Assembly: GCF_000380985.1 (NCBI RefSeq)
Contig: NZ_KB905694.1
Coordinates: 1-64,000, forward strand
Direction of reading: 5' to 3'
Length of the DNA: 64,000 bases
DNA from: Proteiniphilum acetatigenes DSM 18083
GTDB lineage: Bacteria; Bacteroidota; Bacteroidia; Bacteroidales; Dysgonomonadaceae
The translations under genes and the position numbers were made by a program. This document shows, in pieces, positions 5,143 to 63,887 of this stretch (position 1 is the first letter of the stretch; each line of letters begins with the position of its first letter). The notes under the pieces were generated by a model. That model was not told the DNA's origin and made no database searches. It saw only the letters and a list, made by a program, of their open reading frames with translations.

Positions 5143-6222
5143 TCAGAGCTGTTTCTCAAAGTCTTGCATACACCGGATCAGAGCTTCTACTGCCTCTTTG
5201 GGACAGGCATTATAAATAGAAGCGCGGAATCCGCCTACAGAACGGTGCCCTTTGATGCCCACCATTCCTCTTTCAATAGCAAACTGAAGGAAAGCAGCTT
5301 CTTTGTCTTTGTATTCTTCATTCATCACAAAGCAGACATTCATGATAGAGCGGTCTTCTTTGGCAGCGGTTCCCACGAAAAGTTTATTACGGTCTATCTC
5401 ATCATAAAGAAGCGCAGCTTTCTCCTTGTTAAGTTTATACATTACTTCCAGACCTCCCAGTTCCTTCACCCATTTCAGTGTTTCATGCATCACGAAAATA
5501 GGAAATACCGGAGGTGTATTGAACATAGAACGATTCTTGTCGGAATCGCTGATATGTGTACGGTAATCAACCATAGTCTGCAGTGGCCGGTCAATCTTAC
5601 CGAGAATATCTTCACGAACGATCACGAAAGCCACACCTGCCGGGCCTACGTTTTTTTGTGCACCACCGTAGATAAGACCATATTTGGATACGTCTATCGG
5701 ACGGCTCATAATATCGGACGACATATCGGCCACTAAGGGAACCGGGCTATCGATATCTTCATGCAATTCAGTACCGAAAATAGTATTATTGGTAGTAATA
5801 TGGAAATAATCGGCATCTGCCGGAATAGTGTATTCTTTGGGGATATAGGAGTAGTTTTTGTCTTCTGATGAAGCCACCACATCCACTTCACCGTAAAATT
5901 TCGCTTCTTTGATGGCTTTTTTAGCCCAGGTTCCGGTTTGCAGATAGGCTGCTTTTTTCTTCATCAGGTTGGCAGGAACCATAAAAAACTGTGTACTGGC
6001 ACCTCCGCCAAGCAAAAGCACCCGATAATTATCAGGAATATTAAGCAGTTCTTTCCACAGATCTGCCGTCTCTTTCATGATCCGCTCCCACCCCGGAGTA
6101 CGATGCGATATTTCCAGAATACCTATTCCGGTATTGTCGAAATTGCGTATCGCTTCAATGGCTGACTCCACTGCCGGCCGGGGAAGTACGCACGGACCGG
6201 CATTAAAATTATACTTCTGCAT
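5143..6222 (-). CDS. serC: Phosphoserine aminotransferase
   Basis: Transfers an amino group from glutamate to 3-phosphohydroxypyruvate to give O-phosphoserine in serine synthesis, using PLP in the cytoplasm. The 359-residue length is normal for the family. The N-terminus [10 protein letters not shown] is characteristic, LGGGASTQF binds the cofactor phosphate, and the PLP lysine is in [12 protein letters not shown] (about K190). It follows serA on the same strand with a 104-base gap made of repeat modules. O-phosphoserine is also the substrate of cysteate synthases, which links it by inference to the sulfonolipid-like genes at 43-46 kb. Confidence 0.97.
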
Positions 6223-6326
6223 ACGGTTATATTTTTGAATTATAAATTAAAAATTATAAGTTACCAAATCACCCCAGTCTCCCTATCTCCTAAATCTCCA
6301 CAGTCATTTTCCCACCTTATTATTCC
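6223..6326 (-). repeat. Modular leader tract before serC
   Basis: On the minus strand this gap starts with AAGGTGGGAAAATGAC, continues through GGAGATTTAGGAGATAGGG and GACTGGGGTGA, and ends in an AT-rich block directly before the serC ATG. Both the first block and the last 22 bases before the start (apart from the final base) match the fmt leader at 11997-12196. No -7 box was seen, so it is probably an intercistronic leader within a serA-serC transcript. Confidence 0.6.
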
Positions 6327-7253
6327 TCAATTTACCCTGAAACGTTCATCTCCATTCTGGAAGTACGCCACAATTTGATTGGCAGCAGCTAAACCCGCAT
6401 TTTTATTGGCATCCATAGTTTGTGCACCCAATTTTTTGGGCGTAGCAAAATAACGTCTCGGGAATTTTTCCAGAAATTCCTCATGTTTATCGGGTTTGAC
6501 ATCGGTAACATATTGGAAAGCCGGGCGTTCTTCCATGATACGGATCAAATCGTCTTCTACCACCAACTCCTTCCGTGCTGTATTGAGGAGAAGCCCATCT
6601 TGCGGCATCAGGGATAAAAGGGAATAATCCACACAGTAACGTGTTTCTTCCAGCAAAGGCATATGGAGGGAAACAAAATCGCTATTCTGAAACAATTCCT
6701 TATTAGTATATGCAGTGATCACTCCATATTCTCCTTCTTTACGCAAGTCATCATGCGTAAGCGTAGGTGAAAAAGCATACACCGGCATATCGAAGCCTCT
6801 CGCTATCTTGGCCACCATCTTGGCCACGTTCCCGAAAGCATATAAACCCAGCCGTCTGCGAGTCAACTCACGTCCTACCGAACCATCGAAATGATTACGC
6901 TGCGCATAAATCATCATTCCGAAAACAAGCTCAGCCACAGCATTGGCATTCTGTCCGGGAGTGTTCATTACACAGATACCACAATCGGTAGCGGCTTCCA
7001 GATCCACATTATCGTATCCTGCCCCGGCCCTGACAATTATTTTCAGATTGGGGGCAGCTTCCATTACATTCTTGTTGACAATATCACTTCGTATGATCAA
7101 AGCATCCACGTCCTTCACAGCATCAAGCAACTGGCTTTCCGCCTCATACTTCTCTAACTTCACGAACTGATGACCCGCAGATTCTATAATATGTTGAATC
7201 CCCTGCACAGCAGGTAAAGCGAATGGCTTACTCGTTGCCAAAAGTACTTTCAT
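6327..7253 (-). CDS. serA: D-3-phosphoglycerate dehydrogenase, lysine active-site type
   Basis: Catalyses the first step of serine synthesis, NAD-dependent oxidation of 3-phosphoglycerate. I chose the ATG at 7253 (MKVLLATSKPF, 308 residues), which fits family length. ATGs at 7259 and 7304 only add a tail. The substrate/NAD arginine is in NTARKE (R227). The usual catalytic histidine of TPHxGA is replaced in ATPKKLGAQT (K273/K274), as in the short PGDH group that uses lysine. The nucleotide loop AFGNVA departs from GxGxxG. There is no ACT or ASB regulatory domain. It is co-directional with serC. Confidence 0.92.
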   Translation of the reverse strand: MKVLLATSKPFALPAVQGIQHIIESAGHQFVKLEKYEAESQLLDAVKDVDALIIRSDIVNKNVMEAAPNLKIIVRAGAGYDNVDLEAATDCGICVMNTPGQNANAVAELVFGMMIYAQRNHFDGSVGRELTRRRLGLYAFGNVAKMVAKIARGFDMPVYAFSPTLTHDDLRKEGEYGVITAYTNKELFQNSDFVSLHMPLLEETRYCVDYSLLSLMPQDGLLLNTARKELVVEDDLIRIMEERPAFQYVTDVKPDKHEEFLEKFPRRYFATPKKLGAQTMDANKNAGLAAANQIVAYFQNGDERFRVN

Positions 7254-7356
7254 ATTCATCCTTTGTTTATAAAAATTCACCGGATACTCGACCGATTCCC
7301 TCAAAGCAGGGCTTTTTATACACTTTTTTAAATTATCACTTTGTAATTAAGAAGTG

Positions 7357-7364
7357 CAAATTTA
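7357..7364 (-). promoter_or_regulatory. Probable -7 box of the serA-serC promoter
   Basis: TAAATTTG on the minus strand fits the Bacteroidetes TAnnTTTG consensus and lies about 100 bases upstream of serA in the divergent serA/recR gap. The -33 element is not clear. Confidence 0.45.
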
Positions 7365-7440
7365 CAAACTTATATCTAACAAAAAACGAAATCGGAATAA
7401 AAAATCCATGATGATTCTATTTTCTACGATTTAAAAGTTA

Positions 7441-7472
7441 TTTGCCCGATAAATTGAATCATCGTATCTTTG
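7441..7472 (+). promoter_or_regulatory. recR promoter (TTTG-N20-TATCTTTG)
   Basis: TTTG at 7441-7444 and TATCTTTG at 7465-7472 match the Bacteroidetes primary-sigma consensus with 20 bases between them. Transcription would begin roughly 18 bases before the recR ATG. Confidence 0.75.
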
Positions 7473-7495
7473 TACCACTCGAAAATGTTACGTAA

Positions 7496-8128
7496 ATGAA
7501 CAGTCCTTACCCATCCGCTTTACTCGAAAATGCAGTCAATGAATTTGCCAATCTTCCCGGGATTGGTAGAAAATCAGCACTGCGACTGGTACTTCATCTG
7601 TTACGTCAGGATGAAGACAGAGTAGCCAATTTTGCCGGCACTATGCTGAAATTGAAGCGGGAGATTAAATATTGTGCTGTCTGTCATAACATTTCCGATA
7701 CCGAGGTATGTAATATTTGCAGTGACAAATCCCGAGACAGTTCTTTGATCTGCGTAGTGGAGAATGTAAAGGAGGTAATGGCCATTGAGAAAACAGTACA
7801 ATTTGGCGGCCTTTACCATGTTTTAGGGGGTATTATCTCCCCTATCGACGGTATCGGCCCGTCCGATCTGGAAATAGCCAGTCTCGAAGAGAGGGTGAAA
7901 TCGGGCGAAGTCCGGGAGGTGATCCTTGCCCTCAGTGCTACCATGGAGGGCGACACTACCAATTTTTATATCTACCGTAAGCTTCAGCCTTATGGAGTAA
8001 AAGTGAGTATTATAGCCAGAGGGGTATCAATTGGCGATGAGATTGAGTATGCTGATGAGGTGACACTTGGCCGCTCCATTTTGAACCGGACGCCGTTTGA
8101 TGAATCCTATAAACTTGTTTCAAAATGA
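7496..8128 (+). CDS. recR: Recombination mediator RecR
   Basis: RecR works with RecO and RecF to load RecA at gaps during repair. The 210-residue protein has the N-terminal helix-hairpin-helix ([13 protein letters not shown]), the C4 zinc finger (C60, C63, C72, C75), a Toprim domain beginning at SLICVVEN and the Walker-like C-terminus. It has its own promoter. Confidence 0.97.
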
Positions 8129-8276
8129 AACGAGCATGTAAGTCGATTTAATGATGTGCTGACTTGTCCCGATCTTCGGGAAGTAGTGCAGGTTTGATAA
8201 TTACTAATCGATAAATCGTTAAATTAACTAATCATTCCGGGTCCATACACTTTAATGAAAAAAGTGAAATAATGAT
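8129..8276 (+). repeat. Modular gap between recR and the membrane-protein gene
   Basis: The gap carries module-type sequence in sense orientation: GATTTAATGATGTGCTGA, then a small hairpin CCCGA-TCT-TCGGG at 8168-8180, then TGATAATTACTAATCG and AAAAAGTGAAATAATGAT before the start. A related CCGACAAGTAGTGCC fragment occurs near 17510. No promoter box is evident. Confidence 0.4.
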
Positions 8277-8918
8277 ATGAAAAACGTGAATACAATGGAG
8301 AAAACCATAAGGCTCTTGAAAGGGCATTATTATGGAAATATTATCCTGCTGGCGACTATTTTCCTACTTACCATATTTAGTCTGATTCCATTCTTTACGA
8401 ATGGAGAGGTCATTAGCGTTACGACTGAGAGATATGCCATCATGATCTCTATCATAGCCATCCCGGCCTCACTGAAATTTTTCGCCCATCAATTAAAGAA
8501 AATACCTCGTCCCACGGAAACCAAGACAGCTACAGAAAAGTATAAAAATGCTTCTTTCCTGCGCCTGTACACTATCAGCGCAGTGACACTGATGCATATT
8601 ATATTGTTTACCATTTCGCGGAATATGAATTTTTTCTGGTTTACGGTAGTATTGTTTATCGTTTTTCTCTTTTGCAAACCATCATACGAAGAGTTGGAAA
8701 ACCTCACTGAAACGCCCGGAAAACAAGGTTTGACCGGGGAAGAAGAACAAGAACTACAAGAAGAACAATTATACCCAAATCAGTCTTACGGGGATCACAG
8801 CCGGACCGATGACAGAAAAGCCGGAGAAATGCAGGAAAAACGATTTGAGAATATAGAAGATATCCCAGAACCAACACACAATAAATATCCGGAAAATGAA
8901 CAGGTTACTGGAAAATAA
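8277..8918 (+). CDS. Small integral membrane protein of unknown function
   Basis: I do not recognise this 213-residue protein. It has four hydrophobic segments at roughly 21-40, 51-68, 98-115 and 118-137, and then a charged, Glu/Gln-rich cytoplasmic tail of about 75 residues with no cysteines. The start may be the ATG at 8277 or the one six codons later (MEKTIRLLKGHYYG), which reads more like a natural N-terminus. Its 3' end overlaps the GNAT gene by 23 bases, so the two are probably translationally coupled. Confidence 0.6.
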   Translation: MKNVNTMEKTIRLLKGHYYGNIILLATIFLLTIFSLIPFFTNGEVISVTTERYAIMISIIAIPASLKFFAHQLKKIPRPTETKTATEKYKNASFLRLYTISAVTLMHIILFTISRNMNFFWFTVVLFIVFLFCKPSYEELENLTETPGKQGLTGEEEQELQEEQLYPNQSYGDHSRTDDRKAGEMQEKRFENIEDIPEPTHNKYPENEQVTGK

Positions 8919-9423
8919 TATTCTCCGCCTCCGTGCTCCCGAACCGGAGGATCTGGATTTGCTTTATGCCTGGGAGAACGACACGGCCATTTGGCAAAAC
9001 GGCGCCTCTATTGTCCCTTTTTCCCGGTACTCCATCAAACAATATCTGATCGATTATAAGCATGACATATATGTGGACAAACAGTTACGGCTGATGGTGA
9101 CACTCAGGGAAACGGACGAATGCATAGGTACCGTCGACCTGTATGATTTTGATCCGTTTCACCGAAGGGCCGGTGTAGGGATATTGATTGACTGCAAACA
9201 CCGGCGTAAAGGCTATGCAGTGCAAGCACTCATGCTGCTGGAAGAATATGCGTTCCGGTTCCTCAATCTGAGACAACTCTACGCGATCATTCCCGAAAAA
9301 AACAATAGTAGTATCGGTTTGTTCGCTAAGACGGGTTATCGGCAGACAGGGCTGTTGGAAGAGTGGCTTTCTTCGGAAGATTCATTTTACCACGCATTGA
9401 TAATGCAAAAACTCAAACTGTAA
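8896..9423 (+). CDS. GNAT-family N-acetyltransferase
   Basis: A 175-residue acetyltransferase of the RimJ/RimL-like GNAT fold. It opens with LRAPEPEDLDLLYAWEND, and the acetyl-CoA loop is in RRAGVGILIDCKHRRKGYA. A C-terminal NNSSIGLFAKTGY segment is typical of the family. The substrate cannot be told from sequence and may be a protein N-terminus, an amine or an antibiotic. It overlaps the preceding membrane-protein gene and lies 25 bases before the Sua5-type gene. Confidence 0.85.
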   Translation: MNRLLENNILRLRAPEPEDLDLLYAWENDTAIWQNGASIVPFSRYSIKQYLIDYKHDIYVDKQLRLMVTLRETDECIGTVDLYDFDPFHRRAGVGILIDCKHRRKGYAVQALMLLEEYAFRFLNLRQLYAIIPEKNNSSIGLFAKTGYRQTGLLEEWLSSEDSFYHALIMQKLKL

Positions 9424-9448
9424 GGTCAAAATATTTTTTTAAAGAACG

Positions 9449-10012
9449 ATGCAAGACGATATAAAAAAAGCGTGCGACATATTAAAAAAAGGGGGAATCA
9501 TTCTCTATCCCACCGACACCATCTGGGGTATTGGCTGCGACGCAACCAATGAAGAGGCCGTAAAACGCATTTACGAACTGAAGCAACGTGACGATAGCAA
9601 ATCGATGCTCGTGCTGTTGGATAACCCCGCGAAGTTACAGACATACGTAAAGGATGTGCCCGATATTGCATGGGATTTGATAGATCTGGCCGACAAGCCG
9701 CTTACCATTATCTACGATGGAGCCAAGAACCTGGCGGCAAATCTTATTGCTCCGGATGGTTCCATTGGCATCCGCATCACCGCCGAAACTTTTTCTATGG
9801 AATTGTGCAGGCAATTCCGTAAGCCAATCGTATCCACATCGGCCAACATAAGCGGGGAATCGTCGCCTTCCTCTTTTTCACAAATCGGACAGGCGGTCAG
9901 AGAAGGTGTGGATTATATCGTTACATACCGGCAAAAAGAACAAAGCCAAGCCAAACCATCGGGGATCGTGAAACTGGCCAAAGACGGCTCCATCAAAATT
10001 ATACGTAAGTAA
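9449..10012 (+). CDS. L-threonylcarbamoyladenylate synthase (Sua5/YciO/YrdC family)
   Basis: Makes threonylcarbamoyl-AMP from threonine, bicarbonate and ATP for the t6A37 modification of ANN-decoding tRNAs. The 187-residue protein is a single YrdC domain with the signatures YPTDTIWGIGCDA, KQRDDSKSM and PIVSTSANISGE. The long Sua5 C-terminal domain is absent, so it is TsaC-like in length. YciO paralogues look similar, which is why I leave the symbol blank. Confidence 0.88.
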   Translation: MQDDIKKACDILKKGGIILYPTDTIWGIGCDATNEEAVKRIYELKQRDDSKSMLVLLDNPAKLQTYVKDVPDIAWDLIDLADKPLTIIYDGAKNLAANLIAPDGSIGIRITAETFSMELCRQFRKPIVSTSANISGESSPSSFSQIGQAVREGVDYIVTYRQKEQSQAKPSGIVKLAKDGSIKIIRK

Positions 10013-10022
10013 AAAAAATAAT

Positions 10023-10030
10023 TATCTTTG
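10023..10030 (+). promoter_or_regulatory. -7 box before the CLC channel gene
   Basis: TATCTTTG at 10023-10030 fits TAnnTTTG, but no convincing -33 TTG was found. If used, the transcript would carry a leader of about 170 bases containing the dispersed repeat at 10114-10196. Confidence 0.5.
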
Positions 10031-10113
10031 CATAAAGGCTATTTATAGCCATTTTGAATTTCATTCTACTATTTTAAATGCTTTAGACTATTTCCACGTT
10101 TGGCAGCTTTGTT

Positions 10114-10196: not shown

Positions 10197-10205
10197 CGTA
10201 CTCCG

Positions 10206-11996: not shown

Positions 11997-12196
11997 GGTG
12001 GGAAAATGACCGGGGGACCAGGGGACCAGGGGAGAGGGTGATAGGGTGATAGGGTGATAGGGGTAAATTAGGCTGATATAGTTACACTTTTCATTTTCAC
12101 TTTTAGTTTTTCACTTGGTTCTCACTTCTTAGTTCTTAGTTAATTACTTATTCGGTAGTTTATTATTCATAACTTATAATTCAAAAATATAACCGC
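11997..12196 (+). repeat. Modular leader tract before fmt, G-quadruplex-capable
   Basis: The tract begins immediately after the CLC stop codon with GGTGGGAAAATGAC. At 12012-12063 there are seven G-runs of three to five bases, with loops ACCA, ACCA, AGA, TGATA, TGATA and TGATA. These include two and a half copies of an 8-base unit GGGGACCA and three of GGGTGATA. Then come CACTTTTAGTTTTTCAC, repeated TTCTTAG pieces and an AT-rich block just before the fmt ATG that matches the serC leader. The G-rich strand is the sense strand. No promoter box was recognised. Confidence 0.65.
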
Positions 12197-13171: not shown

Positions 13172-13173
13172 GG

Positions 13174-17378: not shown

Positions 17379-17473
17379 CGAATGCATTCAAAAGAAAAAC
17401 TTTTCTCACCGTTTATCTGTTATTTATATCTGTTAAGATCTCTTGTGGCAGACGGTAGCAACAAAAATTGTTT

Positions 17474-17481
17474 TACTTTTG
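17474..17481 (+). promoter_or_regulatory. -7 box of the lemA-TPM unit
   Basis: TACTTTTG fits TAnnTTTG and lies about 130 bases before the LemA start. No clear -33. The remaining leader (17510-17611) is module-type sequence with AATGTACCAATGTACTAATG and GGTAATTCATAACTCATAA in sense orientation. Confidence 0.5.
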
Positions 17482-17509
17482 CCGGACGGGACAAGACAAT
17501 GTGAATAAT

Positions 17510-17611
17510 CCCGACAAGTAGTGCCAATGAGACTAATGTACCAATGTACTAATGGGACTAATTTAAATTGGTAGTTAGTGTTGGTAATTCATAACTCATA
17601 AATACAACCAA
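17510..17611 (+). repeat. Modular leader tract before the LemA gene
   Basis: Contains the ACTAATGTACCAATGTACTA and ATGGGACTAAT modules, then GGTAGTTAGTGTTGGTAATT and a final CATAACTCATAAATACAACC before the start. The last block is a variant of the start-proximal block at fmt and serC. Confidence 0.55.
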
Positions 17612-19449: not shown

Positions 19450-19450
19450 C

Positions 19451-20374: not shown

Positions 20375-20440
20375 TGGACAATGGATAATTTTCAGTTGTC
20401 AATTGTCAATTGTCAATTAAAGAAAAAAATCGTAATTTTG
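20375..20440 (+). promoter_or_regulatory. lysA promoter embedded in TTGTCAA repeats
   Basis: The gap starts with GGACAATGGATAAT duplicated, then has TTGTCAA repeated with a 7-base period. The last TTG at 20410-20412 stands 20 bases before TAATTTTG at 20433-20440, a good Bacteroidetes promoter. The GACAA and TTGTC repeats are mutually complementary, so a stem could also form across the promoter. Confidence 0.6.
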
Positions 20441-29742: not shown

Positions 29743-30717
29743 TCACATTAACTTACATTTCTCCTCGTCGCACGAAATCTCTGGATATCTCCGGCTAAAA
29801 GTCTCCATTTTCCGTAAGGTATCCTTTACAAACGCAGTGTGAGCCTCCGTGCCGGGATAAAGCGGACGATGCTCAATTGCTTTTCGGATATGCTCCCATT
29901 CTTCATTAATATGCATGGTCTCAGCAGAAAAGAATGTATTGCTAAAAAGTTGCCAAATATAATCTACCGCAAAAGAGGAAGGGTGCATCATATCTTCATC
30001 GTAAAACCTGTAATCACGTAGTTCATCGATCATCACTTCGTAGGCAGGAAAATAGCAGACATTTTCCGGGAAAAGTTGTTGTAAGTTGTCTATCGCCAGA
30101 TGAAGTACCGATTTACTGATTTGATTCTCATGTGCTCCCTCTTTCCAGTGACGGACGGGACTGACAGTAAACAGCAATTTGATACCCGGACGAATGGACG
30201 TAAGCACAGAGATCAACTTCTTCCACTCCTCAGTAACCTCTTCTACCGATAAACGGACCCGGTGGAACAGACGGGCAGGAAACTTATGGCAATTCCCCGC
30301 TATTTCCCCGCTGTCTCTCCATCGATATATGTATGCAGAACCAAAGGTGATAAGAAAAAGATCCGCCTGTTTGATATTTGCGGCAGCACTTTCAAAACGT
30401 TCCGAAATATTCCGCAAACAAACAGTCTTGTCAGGAGCAGAAAATTGGCCATGATGCATCAAGCTATGATATATCCCATTATTGAATACCAGATCAGTTT
30501 CCGAAAAAGGAATTGCGGACAACAATCTTTGCATGGCAGCGGAAACAGAAAAAGGGTTGTACAGAATACCGAAAGGATTCACATCCACCTGAAACTTATA
30601 TTGCAGAAGTTTCCTGCCTATATTTTCAGAAAAGCAGGAACCGAAAAGCATCATCCGGCTGGAGTGATCAATCCGTATATCCGATACGGGAATATCTATG
30701 ATTGTCCTAAAATTCAT
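29743..30717 (-). CDS. GSCFA-domain protein
   Basis: A 324-residue protein with the family motif FGSCFSENIG near residue 31 and the HPSSFAVDYIW segment near residue 245. GSCFA proteins have an SGNH-hydrolase-like fold and are presumed esterases or acyltransferases, but no function is established. It precedes murF-alr on the same strand with a 70-base modular gap. Confidence 0.88.
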   Translation of the reverse strand: MNFRTIIDIPVSDIRIDHSSRMMLFGSCFSENIGRKLLQYKFQVDVNPFGILYNPFSVSAAMQRLLSAIPFSETDLVFNNGIYHSLMHHGQFSAPDKTVCLRNISERFESAAANIKQADLFLITFGSAYIYRWRDSGEIAGNCHKFPARLFHRVRLSVEEVTEEWKKLISVLTSIRPGIKLLFTVSPVRHWKEGAHENQISKSVLHLAIDNLQQLFPENVCYFPAYEVMIDELRDYRFYDEDMMHPSSFAVDYIWQLFSNTFFSAETMHINEEWEHIRKAIEHRPLYPGTEAHTAFVKDTLRKMETFSRRYPEISCDEEKCKLM

Positions 30718-31170
30718 ATATAAACCATTTTCATCACAAAAATAACAATAATAGCGCCATTTCGCTCATTCAACCGGTTTATATTTTGTGAAATCACAAT
30801 ATGGATGATGTGATAATCTGAGGATGTGTTGATGAGATGATTGTCAGGGAAGAGGGTTCCCTTTTAGTTTTTCACTTTTAATTTTAAGTAGAGGGTCATA
30901 AAAAAGGAAAGGTTGTCTCACGACAACCAATCTTCATTGTTAACCTTAAATCTAATACCATGAAAAACACGTTACAAATATAAGCGTTTTTGTGTTATAA
31001 AACATACTTTCCTAGCATAAAAATCATATATTTCATATAATTTAACTAAGTTCCGATAGAACAGCGGTGTTTTAAACAGATTTAAACGCATTTTTTACTA
31101 ACCGGGTTTATCTGATGACTAATTACTAATGATCAATGAATGGGCGTCCACAAATCTTAAATCTTGAATC
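30718..31170. other. 453-base gap: module tracts around a candidate small RNA
   Basis: From left to right there are GATGTGATAATCTGAGGATG and TTTTAGTTTTTCACTTTTAA modules reading on the plus strand (30800-30895), the candidate minus-strand RNA (30897-30968 with promoter), an unstructured AT-rich stretch, and CTAATTACTAATG with AAATCTTAAATCTTGAATC modules (31118-31170). Both flanking genes are on the minus strand, so the modules here are antisense to them, unlike most other gaps in the window. Confidence 0.5.
30897..30968 (-). ncRNA. Candidate small RNA with its own promoter and terminator
   Basis: On the minus strand a -7 box TATATTTG lies at 30975-30982. About 40 bases after the expected start comes GGTTGTC-GTGA-GACAACC (30911-30928), followed by TTTCCTTTTTT, a clean Rho-independent terminator. 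The implied RNA is about 70 bases and codes for nothing obvious. Promoter-to-terminator spacing of this kind is how Bacteroidetes small RNAs look. I cannot assign it to a named family from memory. On the opposite strand the same DNA shows a seven-codon ATG frame, which I reject. Confidence 0.55.
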
Positions 31171-41079: not shown

Positions 41080-41233
41080 GTGGAATGGTGGGAAGGTGGG
41101 AAGGTATCAATGAATTAATGTGCTAATATGCCAATGTGCCAATGAGAATAATGAAATGAGAAGTGAAGAAGTGATTTAATGATTAGTAGATTTGATGATC
41201 TTGAATCTTAAATCTTGAATTTTAAATTTTGAA
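41080..41233 (+). repeat. Modular leader tract before psd
   Basis: Starts right after the cvpA stop with GTGGAATGGTGGGAAGG (GGTGGGAA duplicated). Then come TAATGTGCTAATATGCC, AATGTGCCAATGAG, GTGATTTAATGATTAG and a double CTTGAATCTTAAAT block before the psd ATG. All are on the sense strand. Confidence 0.6.
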
Positions 41234-45728: not shown

Positions 45729-45899
45729 TTGAAGGAGAAAAGGAATTGAAGGAGAAAAGGTGGAATGGTGATTAGGCTAATGGGATAATTTGTTGATGTG
45801 ATAATTTACTGATTTGATGATTAGTTAATGTGCTGATTATAAAAGAGAAAAACGAAAAGTGAAATTGGTAATTAGTAATTAATAATTGGTAATTGGTAA
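45729..45899 (+). repeat. Modular leader tract before the SDR gene
   Basis: Right after the upstream stop: GAAGGAGAAAAGG duplicated, then TGATTAGGCTAATGGG, TGTTGATGTGATAATTTAC, TTTGATGATTAG, AACGAAAAGTGAAA and, at the end, repeated AATTGGTAATTGG with a 7-base period running into the coding region. Confidence 0.6.
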
Positions 45900-48821: not shown

Positions 48822-48992
48822 AGCGGGAAAGTAGAAAGGACTGGGGAGAGGAGATGACCGGGAGACTGGGGAGATTGTGAATTCCAATCCGACATCCCAA
48901 AGTTCAAGTCTTGAATCCTGGTTCTTGACTCTTTTAGTTCAGATATTGTCACTTTTAGTTTTTCATTTTTAGCTTTTAGTTTTCTGGCAATT
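48822..48992 (+). repeat. Modular leader tract before gldK
   Basis: Starts at the porP stop with GCGGGAAAGTAGAAAGGACTG, contains GACTGGGGAGA twice (a weaker G-rich block), then TCAAGTCTTGAATCCTGG, then CACTTTTAGTTTTTCATTTT and a final CTTTTAGTTTTC before the gldK ATG. Order as in the fmt and psd leaders. Confidence 0.6.
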
Positions 48993-50411: not shown

Positions 50412-50509
50412 ATTCAAAATTTCAAATTCAATATTTAAGATTTGTACAATTCCTATTCATCGGTAATTAGTAATTAGTAATTAGTAATTAGTAATTGATA
50501 ATTAAAAAA
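50412..50509 (+). repeat. Modular leader tract before gldL
   Basis: First half AAATTCAAAATTTCAAATTC reads as the reverse complement of the usual CTTGAATCTTAAAT type block, the exception to the sense-strand rule. Second half is GTAATTA repeated five times with a 7-base period, then the gldL ATG at 50510. Confidence 0.55.
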
Positions 50510-52824: not shown

Positions 52825-52929
52825 TAATTTAATAATTTCATGATTATGAATTAAAAAACGACGTAGTCAAATTTTATAATCTTGGTTCTTGAATCTGGAA
52901 TTTTGAATTTTGAATTTGAAATAAAAAGA
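52825..52929 (+). repeat. Modular leader tract before gldN
   Basis: GTGATAATTTAATAATTTC, then AATCTTGGTTCTTGAATC, then GAATTTTGAATTTTGAATTT with a 9-base duplication, and the gldN ATG at 52930. Confidence 0.55.
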
Positions 52930-55274: not shown

Positions 55275-55371
55275 ATTTTTAATTAAAAATGAAAAACTAA
55301 AAGCTTCTATCCTCTATCCTGCAAAGCACATTATCCCTTTTCTAATCTTTCCACCTTTCCACTTTTCCACC
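55275..55371 (-). repeat. Modular leader tract before ugd
   Basis: On the minus strand: AAGGTGGAAAAGTGGAAAGG, TGGAAAGATTAGAAAAGGG, a GATAGAGGATAGAAG repeat and CTTTTAGTTTTTCATTTTTA just before the ugd ATG. The same order (G/A-rich block, then TTTTAGTTTTTC block) is found before gldK on the other strand. Confidence 0.6.
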
Positions 55372-56595: not shown

Positions 56596-56606
56596 CGGCC
56601 GGGATT

Positions 56607-56945: not shown

Positions 56946-56952
56946 GCTATTG

Positions 56953-57585
56953 TTATTTTTTTCTTATCAATGTCAATCCGTCGCGGAGAGGCAGGATCAC
57001 CTTCTCCACCCGGTCGTCATCGGCCAGTTTCCTGTTAAAATCCAATATCGCTTGGGTTGCCCAATCGTTACTTTTCACCTCTTCTATTACTTTTCCGTAC
57101 CAAAGGGTGTTGTCGACCAGGATAAAACCCCCTTTCCTGATCTTCGGGAGGGTATCTTCGTAATGAAGACAATAATCTTCCTTATCGGCATCAAGGAAAG
57201 CGAGATCGAAACTTTCATCCGGAAAACGGGAAAGGATATCCAACGCATCACCAATATGAAGGATAATCTTGTTTCCGTGCTCAGACTGTGCAAAATTATT
57301 GCGTATCCGATCCTCTAATTCATCATCAATTTCAATGGTGTGAAGTTCACTTCCTTCTACGAGGCCTTCTGCGAAACAGAGAGCTGAATATCCGACAAAA
57401 GTACCGATTTCCAGTACCCGCTTCGGACGGATCATTTGCGTGATCATTTTCAGGAAGCGTCCCTGCAGATGCCCGGAAGTCATGTTTCCCTGCAACAGTT
57501 TCACATGCGCATCCCGATCGATCTTTTTCAGCACCTCCGGCTCCGCATCTATATGGGACAGTATGTATTCTTCTATTTTGCTCAT
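56953..57585 (-). CDS. Class I SAM-dependent O-methyltransferase (COMT-like)
   Basis: A 210-residue methyltransferase of the catechol O-methyltransferase-like family. SAM loop VLEIGTFVGYSALCFAEGL, metal-binding DLAFLDADKEDY and ILVDNTLWYGKV. Small phenolic substrates or TrmR-like tRNA modification are both possible for such proteins. Confidence 0.88.
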   Translation of the reverse strand: MSKIEEYILSHIDAEPEVLKKIDRDAHVKLLQGNMTSGHLQGRFLKMITQMIRPKRVLEIGTFVGYSALCFAEGLVEGSELHTIEIDDELEDRIRNNFAQSEHGNKIILHIGDALDILSRFPDESFDLAFLDADKEDYCLHYEDTLPKIRKGGFILVDNTLWYGKVIEEVKSNDWATQAILDFNRKLADDDRVEKVILPLRDGLTLIRKK

Positions 57586-57696
57586 TCGATACTACTTTTA
57601 GAATTACTAATTACCAATTACAGATTTATCGTGCGAACCTCATTATCTTATTATATTGGCACATTAGCATATTAGTCCCATTGGCACATTAAATTG
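57586..57696 (-). repeat. Modular leader tract before the O-methyltransferase gene
   Basis: On the minus strand: TTTAATGTGCCAATGGGACT, AATATGCTAATGTGCC, AATATAATAAGATAATGAGG and then AATTGGTAATTAGTAATTC, the same order as in the SDR leader. Confidence 0.6.
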
Positions 57697-59169
57697 CTAC
57701 ATTGTATAATCGGGTAGATTGTATTTCTCTTTCGCTTCGAGAATTCTCCAGACATCTATGATTTCCAGATAGGTCGTTCCTCCGGTTTCACCGAAACTTC
57801 CTCCCAGGTAAGCTACTCTATCCTGAGACTGGATCGTCTTCTTCCCGAGCATTTGATTAATCGCTTCCGTGAAATAGGCTCGCCGGCTCTCCTTGGTATT
57901 ACCATCCCCTTTTCCTTGCTGAAATTCTGCCCAGATACCGTATGACAGTGCCAACTCACGTGCCAGTCGCTTGGTAGTGGTAATAGCGTAAACGGGACTC
58001 TTTCCCCGGAATGCAGCCAATACCCTGGCAGTCCTGCCGGTGTGACTGTCAGTCACAATCGCCTTTACATTCAGGATGGCACACGATTTCACTGCCTGCT
58101 TGGCGAGAAATTCGGTAACCTCACGATTATCATCAGGATCATAGGGTACCCGGATATCATTCTCCGACAGTTTGGTCAGTTCTGCCTCATAGGCTGTCTT
58201 TGCCATGGTACGTACCGCCTCTACCGGATACTTACCATATGCTGTCTCACCGCTAAGCATTACTGCATCGGTGCGATAATAGATTGCATTGGCGATATCG
58301 GTAATTTCCGCCCGTGTAGGACGTGGATTATTGATCATGGAATGCAGCATTTGAGTAGCTACAATAACCGGCTTCTTATGATGAATGGCTTTTCTGATCA
58401 GCACACGCTGTATACCGGGTATTTTCTCCTGAGCTACTTCTATTCCCAGGTCTCCACGGGCGATCATAATACCATAGGCTGCTTCCAGTATCTCGTCGGC
58501 ATTATCCACACCTTCCTGATTCTCTATCTTGGCAATAATTTTGATAGGGCTCCGCAGCGCATCCAGTATTTCCTGTACAGCTTCTACATCCTCCTTATTT
58601 CTCACGAACGAATGAGCCACAAAATCCACATCGTGTTTTGCGGATAATTCGAGAAATTTCTTATCGCGATCAGTAATTGCAGGAAGGTTGATACGCACAC
58701 CGGGAATATTCACACTCTTGCGGCTACCGATCACCCCGTCATTTTTGGCGCAGCAGAGCAGATAATCGTTCGCAACCTCGATCACTTCCAAATCTACTTC
58801 TCCGTCATCAATCAGGATATCATCCCCCACATGCATCTCTTCGGTAATATTCCGGTAGGTGATATATACTGTATCTCTTGAAGAGATGCCCTCCGGATTT
58901 CCTACAATTCTTATCTTGTCTCCAATTTTCAATTCAATAGGATTTTCCAACACCGTAGTCCGAATCTCCGGGCCTTTGGTATCTACCAATATCGCGATCT
59001 GATCAGAAACTATCCGTACATTGTTAATAATATTGAGAAACCCTTCTTCATCAAGATGGGCAGAATTAAGCCTTACCACATTCATTCCGGCATCGAATAA
59101 TTGTTCTAAAAAAGGTACATCACAACGTTTATCAGAAATAGTGGCAATAATTTTCGTATGTTTATACAT
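57697..59169 (-). CDS. pyk: Pyruvate kinase
   Basis: Last step of glycolysis, making ATP and pyruvate. The 490-residue protein has ILVDTKGPEIRT, the catalytic lysine in IAKIENQEGVDNADEIL, and GIMIARGDLGIEV with the C-terminal allosteric domain. It supplies pyruvate to the pyruvate:ferredoxin oxidoreductase encoded nearby. Confidence 0.96.
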   Translation of the reverse strand: MYKHTKIIATISDKRCDVPFLEQLFDAGMNVVRLNSAHLDEEGFLNIINNVRIVSDQIAILVDTKGPEIRTTVLENPIELKIGDKIRIVGNPEGISSRDTVYITYRNITEEMHVGDDILIDDGEVDLEVIEVANDYLLCCAKNDGVIGSRKSVNIPGVRINLPAITDRDKKFLELSAKHDVDFVAHSFVRNKEDVEAVQEILDALRSPIKIIAKIENQEGVDNADEILEAAYGIMIARGDLGIEVAQEKIPGIQRVLIRKAIHHKKPVIVATQMLHSMINNPRPTRAEITDIANAIYYRTDAVMLSGETAYGKYPVEAVRTMAKTAYEAELTKLSENDIRVPYDPDDNREVTEFLAKQAVKSCAILNVKAIVTDSHTGRTARVLAAFRGKSPVYAITTTKRLARELALSYGIWAEFQQGKGDGNTKESRRAYFTEAINQMLGKKTIQSQDRVAYLGGSFGETGGTTYLEIIDVWRILEAKEKYNLPDYTM

Positions 59170-59258
59170 ATATATATGTTGATTTGTAAATTTATTGATG
59201 TGATAATTTGTTGATTAATCAATAAATCATTGAATTATCACATCATTTAATCATTTTA
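59170..59258 (-). repeat. Modular leader tract before pyk
   Basis: On the minus strand: ATGATTAAATGATGTGATAA, then an inverted pair TTTATTGATTAATCAACAAA, then ATCACATCAATAAATTTAC and the pyk start. GATGTGATAAT occurs here in both directions, so a local hairpin is possible. Confidence 0.55.
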
Positions 59259-59684
59259 TTATCTTTTATCGCGAACCAAAGCATTCAACGCCAAACGATA
59301 GGAATCGGTACCAAAACCGGCAATAACTCCAAGGCAGACAGCCGACAGCATAGAGTGATGACGGAACTCTTCCCGCGCATACACATTGGAGATATGCACC
59401 TCTACTACCGGAGCAGAAACCGCCTTGATAGCATCGCGAATAGCTACAGAGGTATGAGTATAACCTCCTGCGTTGAGGATAATACCATTACTTTCAAATC
59501 CGGCTTCCTGTATCTTGTTAATGATTTCGCCCTCTACATTCGATTGGAAATAGTCGATCCCAATACCTGGATTATCGGCCCGTAACTGCTCCAGATAGTC
59601 GCCGAATGTCTGACCACCATATACTTCCGGTTCCCTGACACCCAGCAAGTTGAGATTCGGGCCGTTGATGATTTGGATTTTCAT
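59259..59684 (-). CDS. aroQ: Type II 3-dehydroquinate dehydratase
   Basis: Third step of the shikimate pathway. The 141-residue protein has INGPNLNLLGVREPEVYG with the catalytic tyrosine, NAGGYTHTSVAIRDA with the catalytic histidine region, and EVHISNVYAREEFRHHS. Dodecameric in the family. Confidence 0.96.
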   Translation of the reverse strand: MKIQIINGPNLNLLGVREPEVYGGQTFGDYLEQLRADNPGIGIDYFQSNVEGEIINKIQEAGFESNGIILNAGGYTHTSVAIRDAIKAVSAPVVEVHISNVYAREEFRHHSMLSAVCLGVIAGFGTDSYRLALNALVRDKR

Positions 59685-59787
59685 AACTGTTCATCTTTTT
59701 TAGCCGCAAAGATACATCATTATTTTTAAACAACCGGGGGTATCACAATAAGTGATACCCCCGGGAGTATAACAGCTATATTGTTAT

Positions 59788-62700
59788 TTAGTTCGCTTCA
59801 TCCGCTGTTTCTGTTACCGGCACAGCAAACGATGCTTCAGCCATCCGCCGGTAAGAGCGGTACCGCCATTGTGCATTCTCTTTCGCAGCTGCAAAAAGCT
59901 CATCGGCTTCCCGCGGGAATGACTTCATCAACTGGGTATAACGGACTTCTCCGAGCAGGAAGTCTTTAAATCTACTCCAGTCCGGCTCTTTACTGTCGAG
60001 TTGGAACGGATTCTTTCCTTCTTCCTCAAGACGCGGGTCATAGCGCCACAGGTGCCAGTATCCGCATTCTACTGCAGCTTTTTGTTCAGACTGGGCGTGT
60101 CCCATTCCTCTTCTTAAGCCGTGACTGATACAGGGAGAATAGGCAATCACAATTGAAGGACCGTTGTAAGACTCGGCCTCCTTAATCGCCTTCAGTGTTT
60201 GTGCCTGGTTAGCTCCCATGGCTACCTGTGCTACATATACATATCCGTACGTAGCAGCAATCATACCGAGATCTTTTTTGCGTATCCGCTTTCCGGCAGC
60301 AGCAAACTTGGCAACCGCAGCGATCGGCGTCGACTTGGATGATTGCCCTCCCGTATTGGAATAGACTTCTGTATCAAGTACCAATATATTGATATTCTGT
60401 CCACTTGCCAGTACATGGTCGAGACCACCGAATCCTATATCATAAGCCCAACCATCACCTCCGAATACCCAGATTGACTTCTTGGACAAATATTTCTCAA
60501 GTGATAGGATCTCTTTTGCGATCTGGTTACCTGCCCCGGTGAGAGATGCAACGATCCTGGGGGCCAACTCTTTCGACACATCGGCATCCTCTCCGTTATC
60601 GATCCATTGACGGAACAGTTCTTTCTGTTCTTCGGTGAATTCTCCCGATGCGAGCCCTTTTTGCATTAAGTCCCGGATACGGTTACGCATACTCATATGG
60701 GCAATTGCAAAACCATATCCGTATTCAGCATTGTCTTCGAAGAGCGAGTTGGCCCATGCCGGCCCTTTACCTTCTTCATTTTTGGTATAAGGTGTGGCCG
60801 GGGCAGAAGCGCCGTAGATAGAGGAACAACCGGTGGCGTTGGCGATCATCATCCTTTCGCCATAGAGTTGTGTAACCAGCTTCACGTAGGGTGTTTCTCC
60901 GCAACCTGAGCAGGCACCGGAGAATTCAAACAACGGTGTGGCAAACTGGGAATTCTTCACATTCAGTTTCACATCTACCAAATGTGCTTTACTGGTCACA
61001 TTATCCACCATATAATCCCAGTTTTTCTGGTTGTCGTACTGTGTGGCGATTGGCACCATTTCAAGCGCCTTTTCTCCTTTCTTGCCGGGGCATACATCCA
61101 CACAATTACCACAACCGAGGCAATCGAGCACATCGACCTGAATACGGAAACCCATATCGGCAAACTGCTTGCCCTGTGCTTTCAGGATTTCCACATCTTC
61201 TCCTACACCTTTCTGTTCTTCCTCATCGAGAACAAACGGGCGTATGGTAGCGTGGGGACATACATAAGCACACTGATTACACTGGATACATGTTTCCGGC
61301 TTCCATACCGGCACACTCACCGCTACACCGCGTTTCTCGTAAGTGGTTGTACCCATCTCCCAGGTACCGTCTTCACGGCCGCTGAAAGCAGATACGGGCA
61401 GACCGTAACCTCGCTGTGCATTTACCGGGCGTACTACCTTCCGGATAAATTCAGGTGCATCGTTGGAGGTATCGGCAACAGTCTCAATAACAGCCCATTC
61501 CATAGGCACTTCCACTTCTTCCACGTCACCTCCACGGTCGACCGCCGCATAGTTCATTTTCACCACCTCTTCCCCTTTTCTTCCATATGATTTCACAATG
61601 AATTTCTTCATCTGCTCCACAGCAAGTTCATAAGGAATAACGTTGGATATTTTAAAAAATGCCGATTGCAGGATGGTATTGGTACGATTACCCAATCCGA
61701 TCTCTTCGGCAATTTTCGTAGCATTGATGATATAGAACCTGATATTGTTTTCAGCAAAATACTTCTTTATATGATCAGGCAGATGATTGCCCACTTCTTC
61801 TTTAGCCCATACCGAGTTGAGAAGGAATGTTCCGTTCTTTTTTAATCCTTTGGTCACATCATACAGATGCAGGTAGGCCGGCACATGGCATGCTACAAAA
61901 TTGGGTGTATTCACCAAATAAGTCGAACGAATAGGATTATCTCCAAAACGAAGGTGAGAACAGGTAAATCCGCCCGACTTCTTGGAGTCGTAAGCGAAGT
62001 AAGCCTGTACATATTTATCGGTATTATCACCGATAATCTTGATAGAGTTTTTATTAGCTCCGACAGTACCATCCGATCCCAATCCGTAGAATTTGGCTTC
62101 GTAGGTGGTCTCATCTATAGTGATCTCTTCTTTCAAAGGAAGTGATTTGAATGTCACATCATCTACAATACCGATAGTGAAATCGTTTTTCGGTATATTC
62201 ATAGAGAGGTTCTCAAAGACCGATACGATCTGTGCCGGAGTGGTGTCTTTGGATGAAAGGCCATAAATCCCTCCCACAATTTCAGGTGCACCCTCTTTTC
62301 CATAGAAGGAATCCTTTACATCAAGATAGAGCGGCTGTCCGGCAGCACCCGGTTCTTTGGTCCGATCGAGTACGGCGATACGTTTCGCCGTTTCCGGAAT
62401 TGCCGACAAAAACGCTTCGGCCTTAAAGGGACGATAAAGATGAACGGCTACCATTCCCACTTTCTCCCCTCTTTCGTTAAGGTAATCTACTGCTTCACGA
62501 ATAGTTTCCGTTACAGAACCCATGGCGATCACTACTCTCTCAGCTTGCGGATCACCGTAATAATCGAATAGGCCGTATTTACGGCCGGTCACAGCAGCCA
62601 GTTTTTCGAGGTATTTTTCCACAACACCTGGTACTGCATCGTAGAACGGGTTGGAAGCTTCGCGTGCCTGAAAATAAATATCATCATTTTGAGCCGTACC

Positions 62701-63354
62701 TCTTGTAACAGGATTATCAGGATTCAATGCCCGGTCACGGAATGCCTGTAAAGCTTCCCGGTTAATAAGGGGTGCCAGATCGTCGTTCGATAAAGCCTCT
62801 ATCTTCTGGATTTCGTGTGATGTACGGAATCCGTCGAAGAAATGGAGAAAAGGAATACGGCTTTCTATCGCAGCCAAGTGTGCTACGGCCGCCAGGTCCA
62901 TCACTTCCTGTACCGATCCGGTAGCAAAAAGTGCGAAACCGGTAGGCCTTGCAGCCATTGCATCCTGGTGGTCGCCGAAAATAGAAAGGGCGTGTGAAGC
63001 CAATGCACGTGCCGAAACGTGAAATACGCCGGGGAGCAACTCTCCCGCTATTTTGTACATGTTGGGGAGCATCAACAACAGCCCCTGAGAGGCAGTAAAA
63101 GTGGATGTAAGTGCACCCGCCTGCAAAGAGCCATGTACAGCTCCGGCAGCCCCGGCCTCCGATTGCATCTCCTGCACCAGTACCGGCTGTCCGAAAATAT
63201 TTTTTCTTCCGGCAGCCGCCCATTCATCCACATATTCGGCCATAGTGGAAGAAGGGGTTATCGGGTAGATCGCAGCCACCTCGCTAAACATATACGCGAT
63301 GTGAGCGGCGGCCTGATTACCGTCGCAGGTTAAGTAAGTTTTTTGTTTTGCCAT
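59788..63354 (-). CDS. nifJ: Pyruvate:ferredoxin (flavodoxin) oxidoreductase
   Basis: Oxidatively decarboxylates pyruvate to acetyl-CoA and reduces ferredoxin in fermenting cells. The 1188-residue single-chain enzyme carries domains I-VII, including the FGQPVLVQEMQSEAGAAGA region, two 4Fe-4S clusters in the insert (CIQCNQCAYVC and CLGCGNCVDVC) and the TPP-binding GDGWAYDIGFGGLDHV near the C-terminus, with NTGGQ. Its 5' region shares a 533-base gap with the divergent trehalose gene. Confidence 0.97.
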   Translation of the reverse strand: MAKQKTYLTCDGNQAAAHIAYMFSEVAAIYPITPSSTMAEYVDEWAAAGRKNIFGQPVLVQEMQSEAGAAGAVHGSLQAGALTSTFTASQGLLLMLPNMYKIAGELLPGVFHVSARALASHALSIFGDHQDAMAARPTGFALFATGSVQEVMDLAAVAHLAAIESRIPFLHFFDGFRTSHEIQKIEALSNDDLAPLINREALQAFRDRALNPDNPVTRGTAQNDDIYFQAREASNPFYDAVPGVVEKYLEKLAAVTGRKYGLFDYYGDPQAERVVIAMGSVTETIREAVDYLNERGEKVGMVAVHLYRPFKAEAFLSAIPETAKRIAVLDRTKEPGAAGQPLYLDVKDSFYGKEGAPEIVGGIYGLSSKDTTPAQIVSVFENLSMNIPKNDFTIGIVDDVTFKSLPLKEEITIDETTYEAKFYGLGSDGTVGANKNSIKIIGDNTDKYVQAYFAYDSKKSGGFTCSHLRFGDNPIRSTYLVNTPNFVACHVPAYLHLYDVTKGLKKNGTFLLNSVWAKEEVGNHLPDHIKKYFAENNIRFYIINATKIAEEIGLGNRTNTILQSAFFKISNVIPYELAVEQMKKFIVKSYGRKGEEVVKMNYAAVDRGGDVEEVEVPMEWAVIETVADTSNDAPEFIRKVVRPVNAQRGYGLPVSAFSGREDGTWEMGTTTYEKRGVAVSVPVWKPETCIQCNQCAYVCPHATIRPFVLDEEEQKGVGEDVEILKAQGKQFADMGFRIQVDVLDCLGCGNCVDVCPGKKGEKALEMVPIATQYDNQKNWDYMVDNVTSKAHLVDVKLNVKNSQFATPLFEFSGACSGCGETPYVKLVTQLYGERMMIANATGCSSIYGASAPATPYTKNEEGKGPAWANSLFEDNAEYGYGFAIAHMSMRNRIRDLMQKGLASGEFTEEQKELFRQWIDNGEDADVSKELAPRIVASLTGAGNQIAKEILSLEKYLSKKSIWVFGGDGWAYDIGFGGLDHVLASGQNINILVLDTEVYSNTGGQSSKSTPIAAVAKFAAAGKRIRKKDLGMIAATYGYVYVAQVAMGANQAQTLKAIKEAESYNGPSIVIAYSPCISHGLRRGMGHAQSEQKAAVECGYWHLWRYDPRLEEEGKNPFQLDSKEPDWSRFKDFLLGEVRYTQLMKSFPREADELFAAAKENAQWRYRSYRRMAEASFAVPVTETADEAN

Positions 63355-63489
63355 AATTATATGATGATGTTACTATAAAATTGCAATCCTTAGTTTAGAT
63401 ACTTCTCAATAGTTCAATTACATCAGGCACTTTGAGTCGCCTTGCTCCTCGATTTTCAATTCTGCGTTCGGCAAAGTAAATAAATTTAC

Positions 63490-63620
63490 TCTGCTCTCAC
63501 TTAACGAAATAGTTCTATGCTCGACATAGTAAAAACAAGTTTTTCCTCTGTACTCACTTATCGAAAACATTCAAACAAGTTTGTCTTTTGCTCGTATTGC
63601 TTATCGAAAACGTTGTAATC
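63490..63620 (+). repeat. Dispersed repeat, copy 2, with extra subunits
   Basis: 63490-63572 aligns over 83 bases with 10114-10196 (71 identities counted by hand). Two further degenerate CTTATCGAAAACGTT-type subunits follow up to 63620, giving at least three tandem subunits. The rest of the 533-base gap between nifJ and the trehalose gene holds the nifJ leader, two palindromes and module-type sequence. Confidence 0.7.
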
Positions 63621-63733
63621 TGAACAACGAAATTACTATAAAAAAGTGGAAGCAACAAACCATACTGTTTTTTTGTTCACGAACGATTTGATAAAAAAAG
63701 AATCTAAACAGAAAAAATAAGTTAAATTTTAAT

Positions 63734-63757
63734 CTTTCATGAAAGTATAACGTTATA
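63734..63757 (+). promoter_or_regulatory. Two adjacent 12-bp palindromes before the trehalose gene
   Basis: CTTTCATGAAAG (63734-63745) and TATAACGTTATA (63746-63757) are both perfect palindromes and are exactly abutted. They lie about 130 bases before the start at 63888 and could be an operator pair. No -7 box was clearly resolved here. Confidence 0.45.
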
Positions 63758-63887
63758 ATTAATATACTAATGAGTCAATAAATCAATGTGCCAATTTAAT
63801 CATGTGATAAGGTGGGAAAGTGTTTTTCACTTTTCATTTTTAATTTAAATAGTCATGGCTCTTGATTTGAAAAGTATTGAATAAAAT
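63758..63887 (+). repeat. Modular leader tract before the trehalose gene
   Basis: ATACTAATGAGTCAATAAA, AATGTGCCAATTTAATC, GTGATAAGGTGGGAAAGTG, then TTTTTCACTTTTCATTTTTA on the sense strand. Here the GGTGGG block comes after the TGCCAAT block, an exception to the usual order. Confidence 0.5.

Follow-up and report, generated by a model that had tools for sequence, protein, structure and literature searches.

We know of no accepted reason for the length, place or orientation of the short heptamer repeats of bacteria. STRR sequences of filamentous cyanobacteria are degenerate tandem heptamers between genes, heptamer repeats have reportedly been seen in Xanthomonas and Nostoc, and REP or MITE-like elements bring inverted arms into intergenic DNA. 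Here we describe bacterial minisatellites, arrays of tandemly repeated units 7 to 9 bases long, in the gaps between genes of Proteiniphilum acetatigenes DSM 18083 (Bacteroidota; Dysgonomonadaceae). The starting point was the window, the stretch of 64,000 nucleotides (nt) that forms positions 1 to 64,000 of contig NZ_KB905694.1 (C3:1-64000) in this 4.78 Mb genome. The reading direction of a word in these arrays tends to lead away from the adjacent gene, so that the form found after a stop codon appears before a start codon as its reverse complement.

Long simple sequence repeats (LSSR) have units of 5-11 nt, seven being the commonest length, and slippage has been proposed for them (Mrazek et al. 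2007, as cited in PMC4679880). Intergenic TAACTGA heptamers are known from Beggiatoaceae, Cyanobacteria and some Bacteroidetes (MacGregor 2015, PMC4679880). According to the parts of that paper drawn on here, 147 of 170 sets face a start codon (132 lacking a ribosome-binding site and 15 having one) and 12 point toward a stop; some sets are reversed just after a stop, and 7-nt indels separate close strains. A translational regulator was proposed for these repeats and no mechanism of spread was found; related heptamers were rarely repeated in the main genome of that study.

The first-pass annotation of the window had placed its blocks in no named family, whereas tandem intergenic heptamers facing start codons have been published as TAACTGA repeats (PMC4679880), and the arrays described here belong to that kind: tandem 7-mers, mostly intergenic, start-facing and differing by 7-nt indels. 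Set against the portions of that paper used here, they differ in having many words, units of 7, 8 or 9 nt, a two-sided outward rule and a place at junctions that are packed in sister species. TAACTGA is not among the 75 enriched words listed in this work, which included no search aimed at it. LSSR and the Xanthomonas and Nostoc heptamers are alike in unit length and in the slippage proposed for them, but outward polarity and the opening of operons do not appear in the partial descriptions consulted. STRR sequences are similarly degenerate intergenic tandem heptamers. REP or MITE-like elements resemble the inverted arms in intergenic DNA of two relatives (G005 and G010), with the difference that the arms here are tandem 8-mers of varying length and that in this genus one arm is usually unlike the other.

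Results

Tandem arrays in the gaps between co-directional genes

We sampled 1.26 Mb of the genome (the window and 1.2 Mb more), in which genes were called with a purpose-written codon-score caller that misplaced some starts; gaps of 20-600 nt were taken, 360 of them co-directional, 44 divergent and 41 convergent. Relatives are designated by G-numbers, G063 and G053 being near relatives with arrays and G052, G078 and G051 sister species. Pooled self-matching of co-directional gaps against dinucleotide shuffles gave peaks at lags 7, 14 and 21 (z of 13.8, 6.2 and 10.7) and at lags 8 and 15 (z of 12.7 and 4.7), with z of 4 to 7 also at lags 2-6. Divergent gaps reached z of 2.9 at lag 7 and 5.9 at lag 8, and convergent gaps had no such periodicity (z of -0.9 at lag 7 and 1.2 at lag 8).

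An unsupervised scan for periods of 6-10 at a strict threshold identified 70 arrays in 57 of the 360 co-directional gaps, compared with a mean of 2.3 arrays in shuffles; 7 were found in 6 of the divergent gaps (shuffle 0.6) and 3 in 3 of the convergent gaps (shuffle 0.0). Density was highest in co-directional gaps (70 in 51.8 kb, versus 7 in 14.2 kb of divergent and 3 in 5.4 kb of convergent gaps), where the period was 7 in 53 arrays and 8 in 14. Both the excess of a 7-nt period and the mainly intergenic placement that characterize intergenic tandem heptamer repeats of the LSSR, STRR and TAACTGA kind were found, as period-7 arrays numbered 53 in the 51.8 kb of co-directional gaps and 4 in 1.00 Mb of called genes. 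In 0.4 Mb of G063, with gaps of up to 700 nt, 29 arrays lay in 24 of 131 co-directional gaps (shuffle mean 1.5), one in 22 divergent gaps and none in 11 convergent gaps.

Within the window itself the scan returned 12 arrays in 9 gaps, and a sequence check found the words named by the first-pass annotation in their places. The annotation's view that such blocks fill most gaps was too strong, given 57 of 360 by the strict scan. Stop-side arrays began within 5 nt of the stop codon in 24 of 52 cases (own genome, G063 and G053 pooled), and start-side arrays came within 15 nt of the start codon in 30 of 60. The promoter-like motif TAnnTTTG was scarcer in array gaps than in the remaining co-directional gaps 60 nt or longer (8/56 versus 73/212 in the own genome, and 5/33 versus 47/119 in G063 and G053 together), so most array gaps look like operon-internal spacers.

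Words tend to read outward from the flanking gene

When polarity was scored with words learned on other contigs (leave-one-contig-out), 63 of 69 scored arrays of the own genome fitted the outward rule. Stop-side arrays were 28 versus 5 for the first orientation (one unscored) and start-side arrays 1 versus 35 (Fisher p = 7e-13), on both gene strands; the fixed orientation toward a nearby start that marks the TAACTGA type is thus present at 35 to 1. Words from the own genome also predicted orientation in 33 of 42 arrays of G063 and G053 (p = 4e-4), G053 by itself giving 11 of 14, which is not significant. At the gldK loci of other Bacteroidales these words failed as a predictor (15 of 27 scored, p = 0.7).

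The first-pass annotation had seen the blocks as lying mostly on the sense strand. This plain rule is insufficient, as most families flip with position. Among enriched 8-mers, ATTCAAGA occurred 18 times in sense (median relative position 0.18) and 12 times in antisense (0.75), TGTGCCAA 18 times in sense (0.27) and twice in antisense (0.73), CTTGGTTC 13 times in sense (0.77) and 4 in antisense (0.27), and TGGTAATT 24 times in sense (0.64) and 4 in antisense (0.33); TTTTAGTT did not flip (15 sense at 0.71, 10 antisense at 0.72). The preferred block order that had also been described was recovered, with G-rich and TGTGCC octamers close to the stop and AATTRGT, TTTTCAC and CTTGGTT heptamers close to the start.

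Within 13 families that were hand-picked after seeing the data, the flip had a Cochran-Mantel-Haenszel z of 4.80 in the own genome and 2.87 in G063 and G053; in the own genome AAAGAGT and AAATCCC of these families did not flip and AATCAAC had the opposite sign. With the same hand-picked families, switches of orientation inside a gap ran from stop-type to start-type 67 times versus 14 in reverse, and 13 versus 3 when both copies belonged to one family. A first check by half-gaps with held-out words counted 163 to 72 for the rule on the left and 214 to 52 on the right, which weakened to 38 to 20 and 44 to 29 when gap halves were counted. In divergent gaps the counts for these words were 36 to 33 (left) and 52 to 41 (right), and in convergent gaps 21 to 8 and 10 to 3.

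Facing copies without gene calls

Outward reading from both sides of a gap requires that copies of opposite orientation point toward one another, and this was evaluated for one word independently of gene calls. Across 101 genomes of the family, TGTGCCAA was followed by TTGGCACA within 2-60 nt 66 times in 28 genomes, and the back-to-back order was seen 8 times in 5 genomes; these totals include repeat counts and correspond to about 56 and 7 distinct places, and a few entries in either list resemble accidental matches that do not belong to arrays. The own genome contributes none of the 66 facing pairs, and 42 come from a single genus, g3. In stretches picked for ATGTGCCAATG, G005 had this word pointing away from the closer gene in all 12 gap entries and G010 in 6 of 10 (leaving aside one edge case), and several gaps of these two genomes are bracketed by facing octamer copies. 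In unpicked stretches the figures were 8 of 9 in the own genome and 9 of 13 in G063; G053 had no copies.

Arrays at junctions packed in genus-mates

Arrays occupy space in this genome and its near relatives where the genes of many genus-mates overlap or lie no more than 14 nt apart. We compared the fmt and psd loci in 30 of the 38 genus genomes with a match. At the fmt junction the called gap was 4-14 nt in 17 loci and 28 and 44 nt in two others; in six, including the own genome, 34-267 nt were made of arrays or array words (the latter judged by eye), and five were not settled by the caller. At the psd junction 18 loci had -4 to 5 nt, word-rich G088 among them, and four (own, G063, G053 and G086) had 90-154 nt with array words; eight were not settled by the caller, one of which, G068, showed octamers by eye. 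In longer stretches, array gaps made up 19/85 of co-directional gaps in the own genome, 21/116 in G063 and 12/54 in G053, and in the sister species 0/52 (G052), 1/68 (G078) and 0/60 (G051). For conserved pairs with consistent starts, the median array gap of the own genome was 111 nt versus 46 in G052 (9 pairs), 128.5 versus 39 in G078 (10) and 154 versus 69 in G051 (9), some individual pairs being longer in the sister.

Word content turns over between species and the arrangement stays. The own genome has 28 copies of ATGTGCCAATG, G063 84, G088 63 and G086 62, and 28 of 38 genus-mates have 0-6 (reversed control 0-2 in the genus). TTCNAGATTCNAGATT has 28 copies in the own genome, 21 in G053, 25 in G088 and 4 in G063, where its reversed control counts 42 and is read as another heptamer of that genome.

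The gldL leaders of the own genome and G053 are the same sequence apart from exactly two heptamers, with identical flanks; such unit-sized indels support slippage, in line with the suggestion of the first-pass annotation that the blocks are a slippage-driven filler. Whole gaps also differ from those of G063: the own genome has -4 nt at C3 142734 versus 107 nt of repeats, 96 nt at C3 176577 versus -4 nt, and 197 nt at 152353 versus 20 nt (contrasts of -38 and -19 nt, and of 2 versus 237 nt, were left out, as start calls disagreed). At 176577 and at 59169 (pyk), G063 retains the start-side end of the own gap and the upstream reading frame runs into it, which we read as a possible deletion in G063 in both places. 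Deletions that move a stop codon into an array would explain why arrays begin at stop codons.

Gaps of the window

The arrays and sub-threshold blocks of the window are collected in Table 1. Matches to NCBIfam above cut-off cover serC, fmt, psd, the SDR, GldK, GldL, GldM, GldN, the nucleotide-sugar dehydrogenase, lysA, murF-alr, pyk and aroQ; the product of 56953-57585, earlier named an O-methyltransferase, has no NCBIfam match. The nearest relatives of GldK come from metagenome-assembled genomes labelled uncultured Proteiniphilum (94%) and Bacteroidales (93%), with more Proteiniphilum assemblies of this type lower down.

Table 1. Repeat blocks in the gaps of the window, in window coordinates.
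Feature	Positions	Strand	Blocks	Basis
serC leader gap	6223..6326	-	G-rich block after stop 6304-6316; heptamer array before start 6238-6263; pre-start block AATTCAAAAATATAACCGT	sequence and array scan
fmt gap	11997..12196	+	period-8 G-rich array 12008-12062, stop side; period-7 array 12119-12141 toward start	
Gap before LemA-like gene	17379..17611	+	octamers 17526-17562; under strict array threshold	
TCAATTG heptamer array of lysA gap	20392..20418	+	stop side; orientation contrary to rule	
Gap between minus-strand genes	30718..31170	-	AAGATTC heptamers (GATTCAAGATTTAAGATTTG) 31151-31170 adjoin upstream stop; antisense octamers 30804-30841, start side	
psd gap	41080..41233	+	G-rich 8-mers 41080-41105; AATGTGCC octamers 41116-41144; CTTGAAT heptamers 41198-41230	
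Gap before SDR gene	45729..45899	+	TGATAATG-type octamers, then AATTRGT heptamer array 45863-45899	
gldK leader	48822..48992	+	CTGGGGAGA blocks 48841-48874; CTTGAATC/CTTGACTC 48910-48931; TTTTAGT/TTTTCAC heptamers 48950-48973; under strict threshold	
gldL leader	50412..50494	+	ATTCAA heptamers (ATTCAAAATTTCAAATTCAA) 50412-50431 adjoin gldK stop; TAATTAG array 50463-50494 adjoins start	
gldN leader	52825..52881	+	degenerate AT-rich blocks under array threshold	
ugd (nucleotide-sugar dehydrogenase) gap	55275..55371	-	G-rich octamer array 55347-55370 by stop; TTTTAGT/TTTTCAT toward start	
Gap before 56953-57585 gene	57586..57696	-	AATGTGCC octamers 57679-57690, then GGTAATTAGTAATT array 57602-57621	
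pyk gap	59170..59258	-	octamers 59178-59258: sense on stop side, then antisense on start side	
TTTTCAC heptamer array	63824..63846	+	near right end of divergent gap 63355-63887	

Several of these gaps have much altered equivalents in relatives. That of serC is 13 nt in G078, and the SDR gap is 17 nt in G078 and -1 in G051; the ugd gap measures 13 nt in G052, 50 in G078 and 173 in G051, and the gap before the 56953-57585 gene 46, 26 and 147 nt in the same three species. The TCAATTG array of the lysA gap is near-identical in G053, and the gldN gap of G063 and G053 holds CTTGAATC-type heptamers (start calls differ by 16 amino acids). The serC (6223-6245, minus strand) and fmt (12174-12196, plus strand) leaders have a pre-start block in common, AATTCAAAAATATAACCG(T/C), close versions of which are found in G063 and G053, in both or one of the two gaps.

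Two regions had been set aside as exceptions to the sense-strand rule, the gap at 30718-31170 and the first half of the gldL leader. Restated as outward reading, the rule largely accommodates both; the TTTTAGTTTTTCAC heptamers (TTTTAGT/TTTTCAC) at 30857-30885 still run contrary to it. The caller missed the gene at 29743-30717, so this gap lies outside all statistics. Within it, and outside the repeat blocks, is the sole match of the window to curated Rfam families at gathering score, the small RNA BTncRNA_FopS (RF04319, a Bacteroidetes family; 30897-30970, minus strand, 77.5 bits). The leader-RNA system once suggested for the blocks is not supported as such: this one match lies next to the blocks and does not consist of them, the folding of array gaps is not out of the ordinary (median minimum free energy z -0.61, n = 85, versus -1.06 in 90 array-free gaps), and TAnnTTTG is rarer in array gaps.

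Other repeats were seen alongside the arrays. A REP-like palindrome, TCCCGA(2-8)TCGGGA, occurs in 8 co-directional gaps, 1 convergent and 1 divergent gap and once in genes (1.26 Mb); it often interrupts octamer arrays, with AAGTAGTG coming after it (e.g., C3:149638, C1:143028, C6:27259 and C6:183078), and a related hairpin lies at window positions 8165-8185. A second dispersed intergenic element carries GAGCGAAGGCGACTC and TCGTTAAGC (e.g., C3:135099-135355 and C3:260810-261014), and its AGGCGACT occurs 11 times in sense and never in antisense in the 360 co-directional gaps. Strings of several AAGA+3 heptamer units, AAGAATCAAGAACCAAGA for example, are repeated at several places of the own genome and likewise of G195, which belongs to another family of the phylum. 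A scan of the phylum for AAGANNN matched 38 of 148 genomes, and with its reversed control high in some of them it shows only that several kinds of period-7 repeats exist.

Discussion

The explanation of these observations that we favour, at about an even chance, is that the arrays are slippage-made spacers between operon genes, filtered by selection at each gene end. Tandem arrays would have opened spacers between neighbouring operon genes in this clade, lengthening and shortening through replication slippage; deletions would trim them and could shift a stop codon into an array. The main effect of the arrays would then be a passive one, to hold the two genes apart so that their translation is no longer coupled. 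For the outward polarity, we judge separate selection on the trailer after the stop and on the region before the start to be the likeliest reading.

Several observations weigh against slippage and selection of this kind. Selection should skew array-free gaps too, and no skew is seen there. Avoidance of start codons accounts for only part of the pattern, as the rule also holds in arrays that have neither ATG nor GTG in the two strands (23 to 1 and 15 to 4). Flipping start-side arrays hardly alters how open the start is predicted to be (mean 0.040, with 30 more open and 20 less so), some word families such as TTTTAGT do not flip, and local slippage does not explain words common to dozens of gaps. 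Array-free gaps, too, exceed those of the sister species in length (127 versus 79 nt for G052, 82 versus 42.5 for G078 and 89 versus 59 for G051).

We tested composition, start codons, hairpins, Ku and reverse transcriptase as sources of the polarity; each falls short of a full explanation. General gap composition is rejected by the lack of strand skew in gaps without arrays. Compared with their flipped versions, start-side arrays had fewer upstream ATG or GTG codons in 16 cases, more in 1 and equal numbers in 33 (n = 50); as the whole cause, start-codon avoidance is ruled out by the arrays that lack these codons and still obey the rule. Stop codons are too weak a cause, the stop side having more than the flipped version in 25 cases and fewer in 12 (n = 52), and the start side 32 and 22 (n = 60). 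A plain purine rule fits the stop side (40 to 10) yet not the start side (25 to 33); in G053 the start-side arrays are 7 to 3 contrary to it, and these we interpret as mostly AATTRGT.

Ku does not track the arrays, being present in the own genome, G063 and G088 and absent from G060 and from G053, a genome of one contig with arrays. Nor does the reverse transcriptase domain RVT_1, which counts 8 in array-poor G078 and 1 in G053. Ku is found in 6 of the 10 genus members that have 12 or more copies of ATGTGCCAATG and in 5 of the 29 others (a sub-cut-off match in G078 excluded), a difference that we take as kinship. Ku is patchy in Dysgonomonadaceae, with 13 of 101 genomes above cut-off, 11 of them in this genus.

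Among the alternatives, one that we consider unlikely is an inverted-arm element or closing stem, in which the two arrays are hairpin arms that terminate, protect or bridge the gap in the mRNA. The gaps of G005 and G010 bracketed by facing copies of one octamer are consistent with it, facing copies (66 to 8) are common in other genera, and three pieces chosen from the facing-pair list fold with z of -5.97, -1.68 and -7.02. In this genus, however, the two arrays of a gap have the same word at chance level (2/24 versus 1.35 permuted), the own genome holds none of the 66 facing pairs, and array gaps are not more folded than others.

The bolder alternative, which we find doubtful, is that the arrays arise by directional addition, in which a break at the stop/start junction would have each 3' end extended by reiterative synthesis of 7-8 nt before the ends are joined, leaving both arrays outward as 3' extensions. 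Such a process predicts the two-sided rule for unrelated words, copies that face each other (66 to 8), the presence of new DNA where junctions are otherwise packed, and the mostly purine-rich outward strands of the stop side. Against it, unit decay shows no gradient from the gene to the gap centre (0.097 versus 0.100), a symmetric process would not give the stop-side preference of G-rich and TGTGCC words, and neither Ku (missing from G053) nor RVT_1 follows the arrays. The wider proposal, a clade-wide opening of junctions by telomere-like outward addition from both DNA ends with a word set by the lineage, seems to us likewise questionable.

It is also improbable that the arrays are sites for a repeat-binding RNA or DNA protein acting on translation, as proposed for TAACTGA repeats. 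The start-side arrays within 15 nt of the start (30/60) and a start-facing orientation like that described in the consulted parts of PMC4679880 speak for such a role, but the words are many and unrelated, the leading word differs between species of one genus, reverse-complement copies follow stops, and essential genes of unrelated function stand on both sides. Chance, base composition or a gene-calling artefact, for which AT-rich gaps and the influence of start calls on what counts as a gap might speak, has next to no probability and is refuted both for the existence of the arrays (70 versus 2.3 in dinucleotide-preserving shuffles) and, in the case of the single word examined independently of gene calls, for its facing arrangement (66 to 8).

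In the open-licence literature searched we recognised no statement of a two-sided rule or of operon opening; as far as that search goes, the new parts are the two-sided polarity rule across several words and the arrays at junctions that are packed in sister species. A polarity rule that applies to several unrelated words, at either end of a gene, limits what could cause it; other genomes can be examined for it, also where no genes have been called. The genus also offers a natural case of packed operon genes that have been pushed apart, in which the effect on expression of losing start/stop overlap is directly testable.

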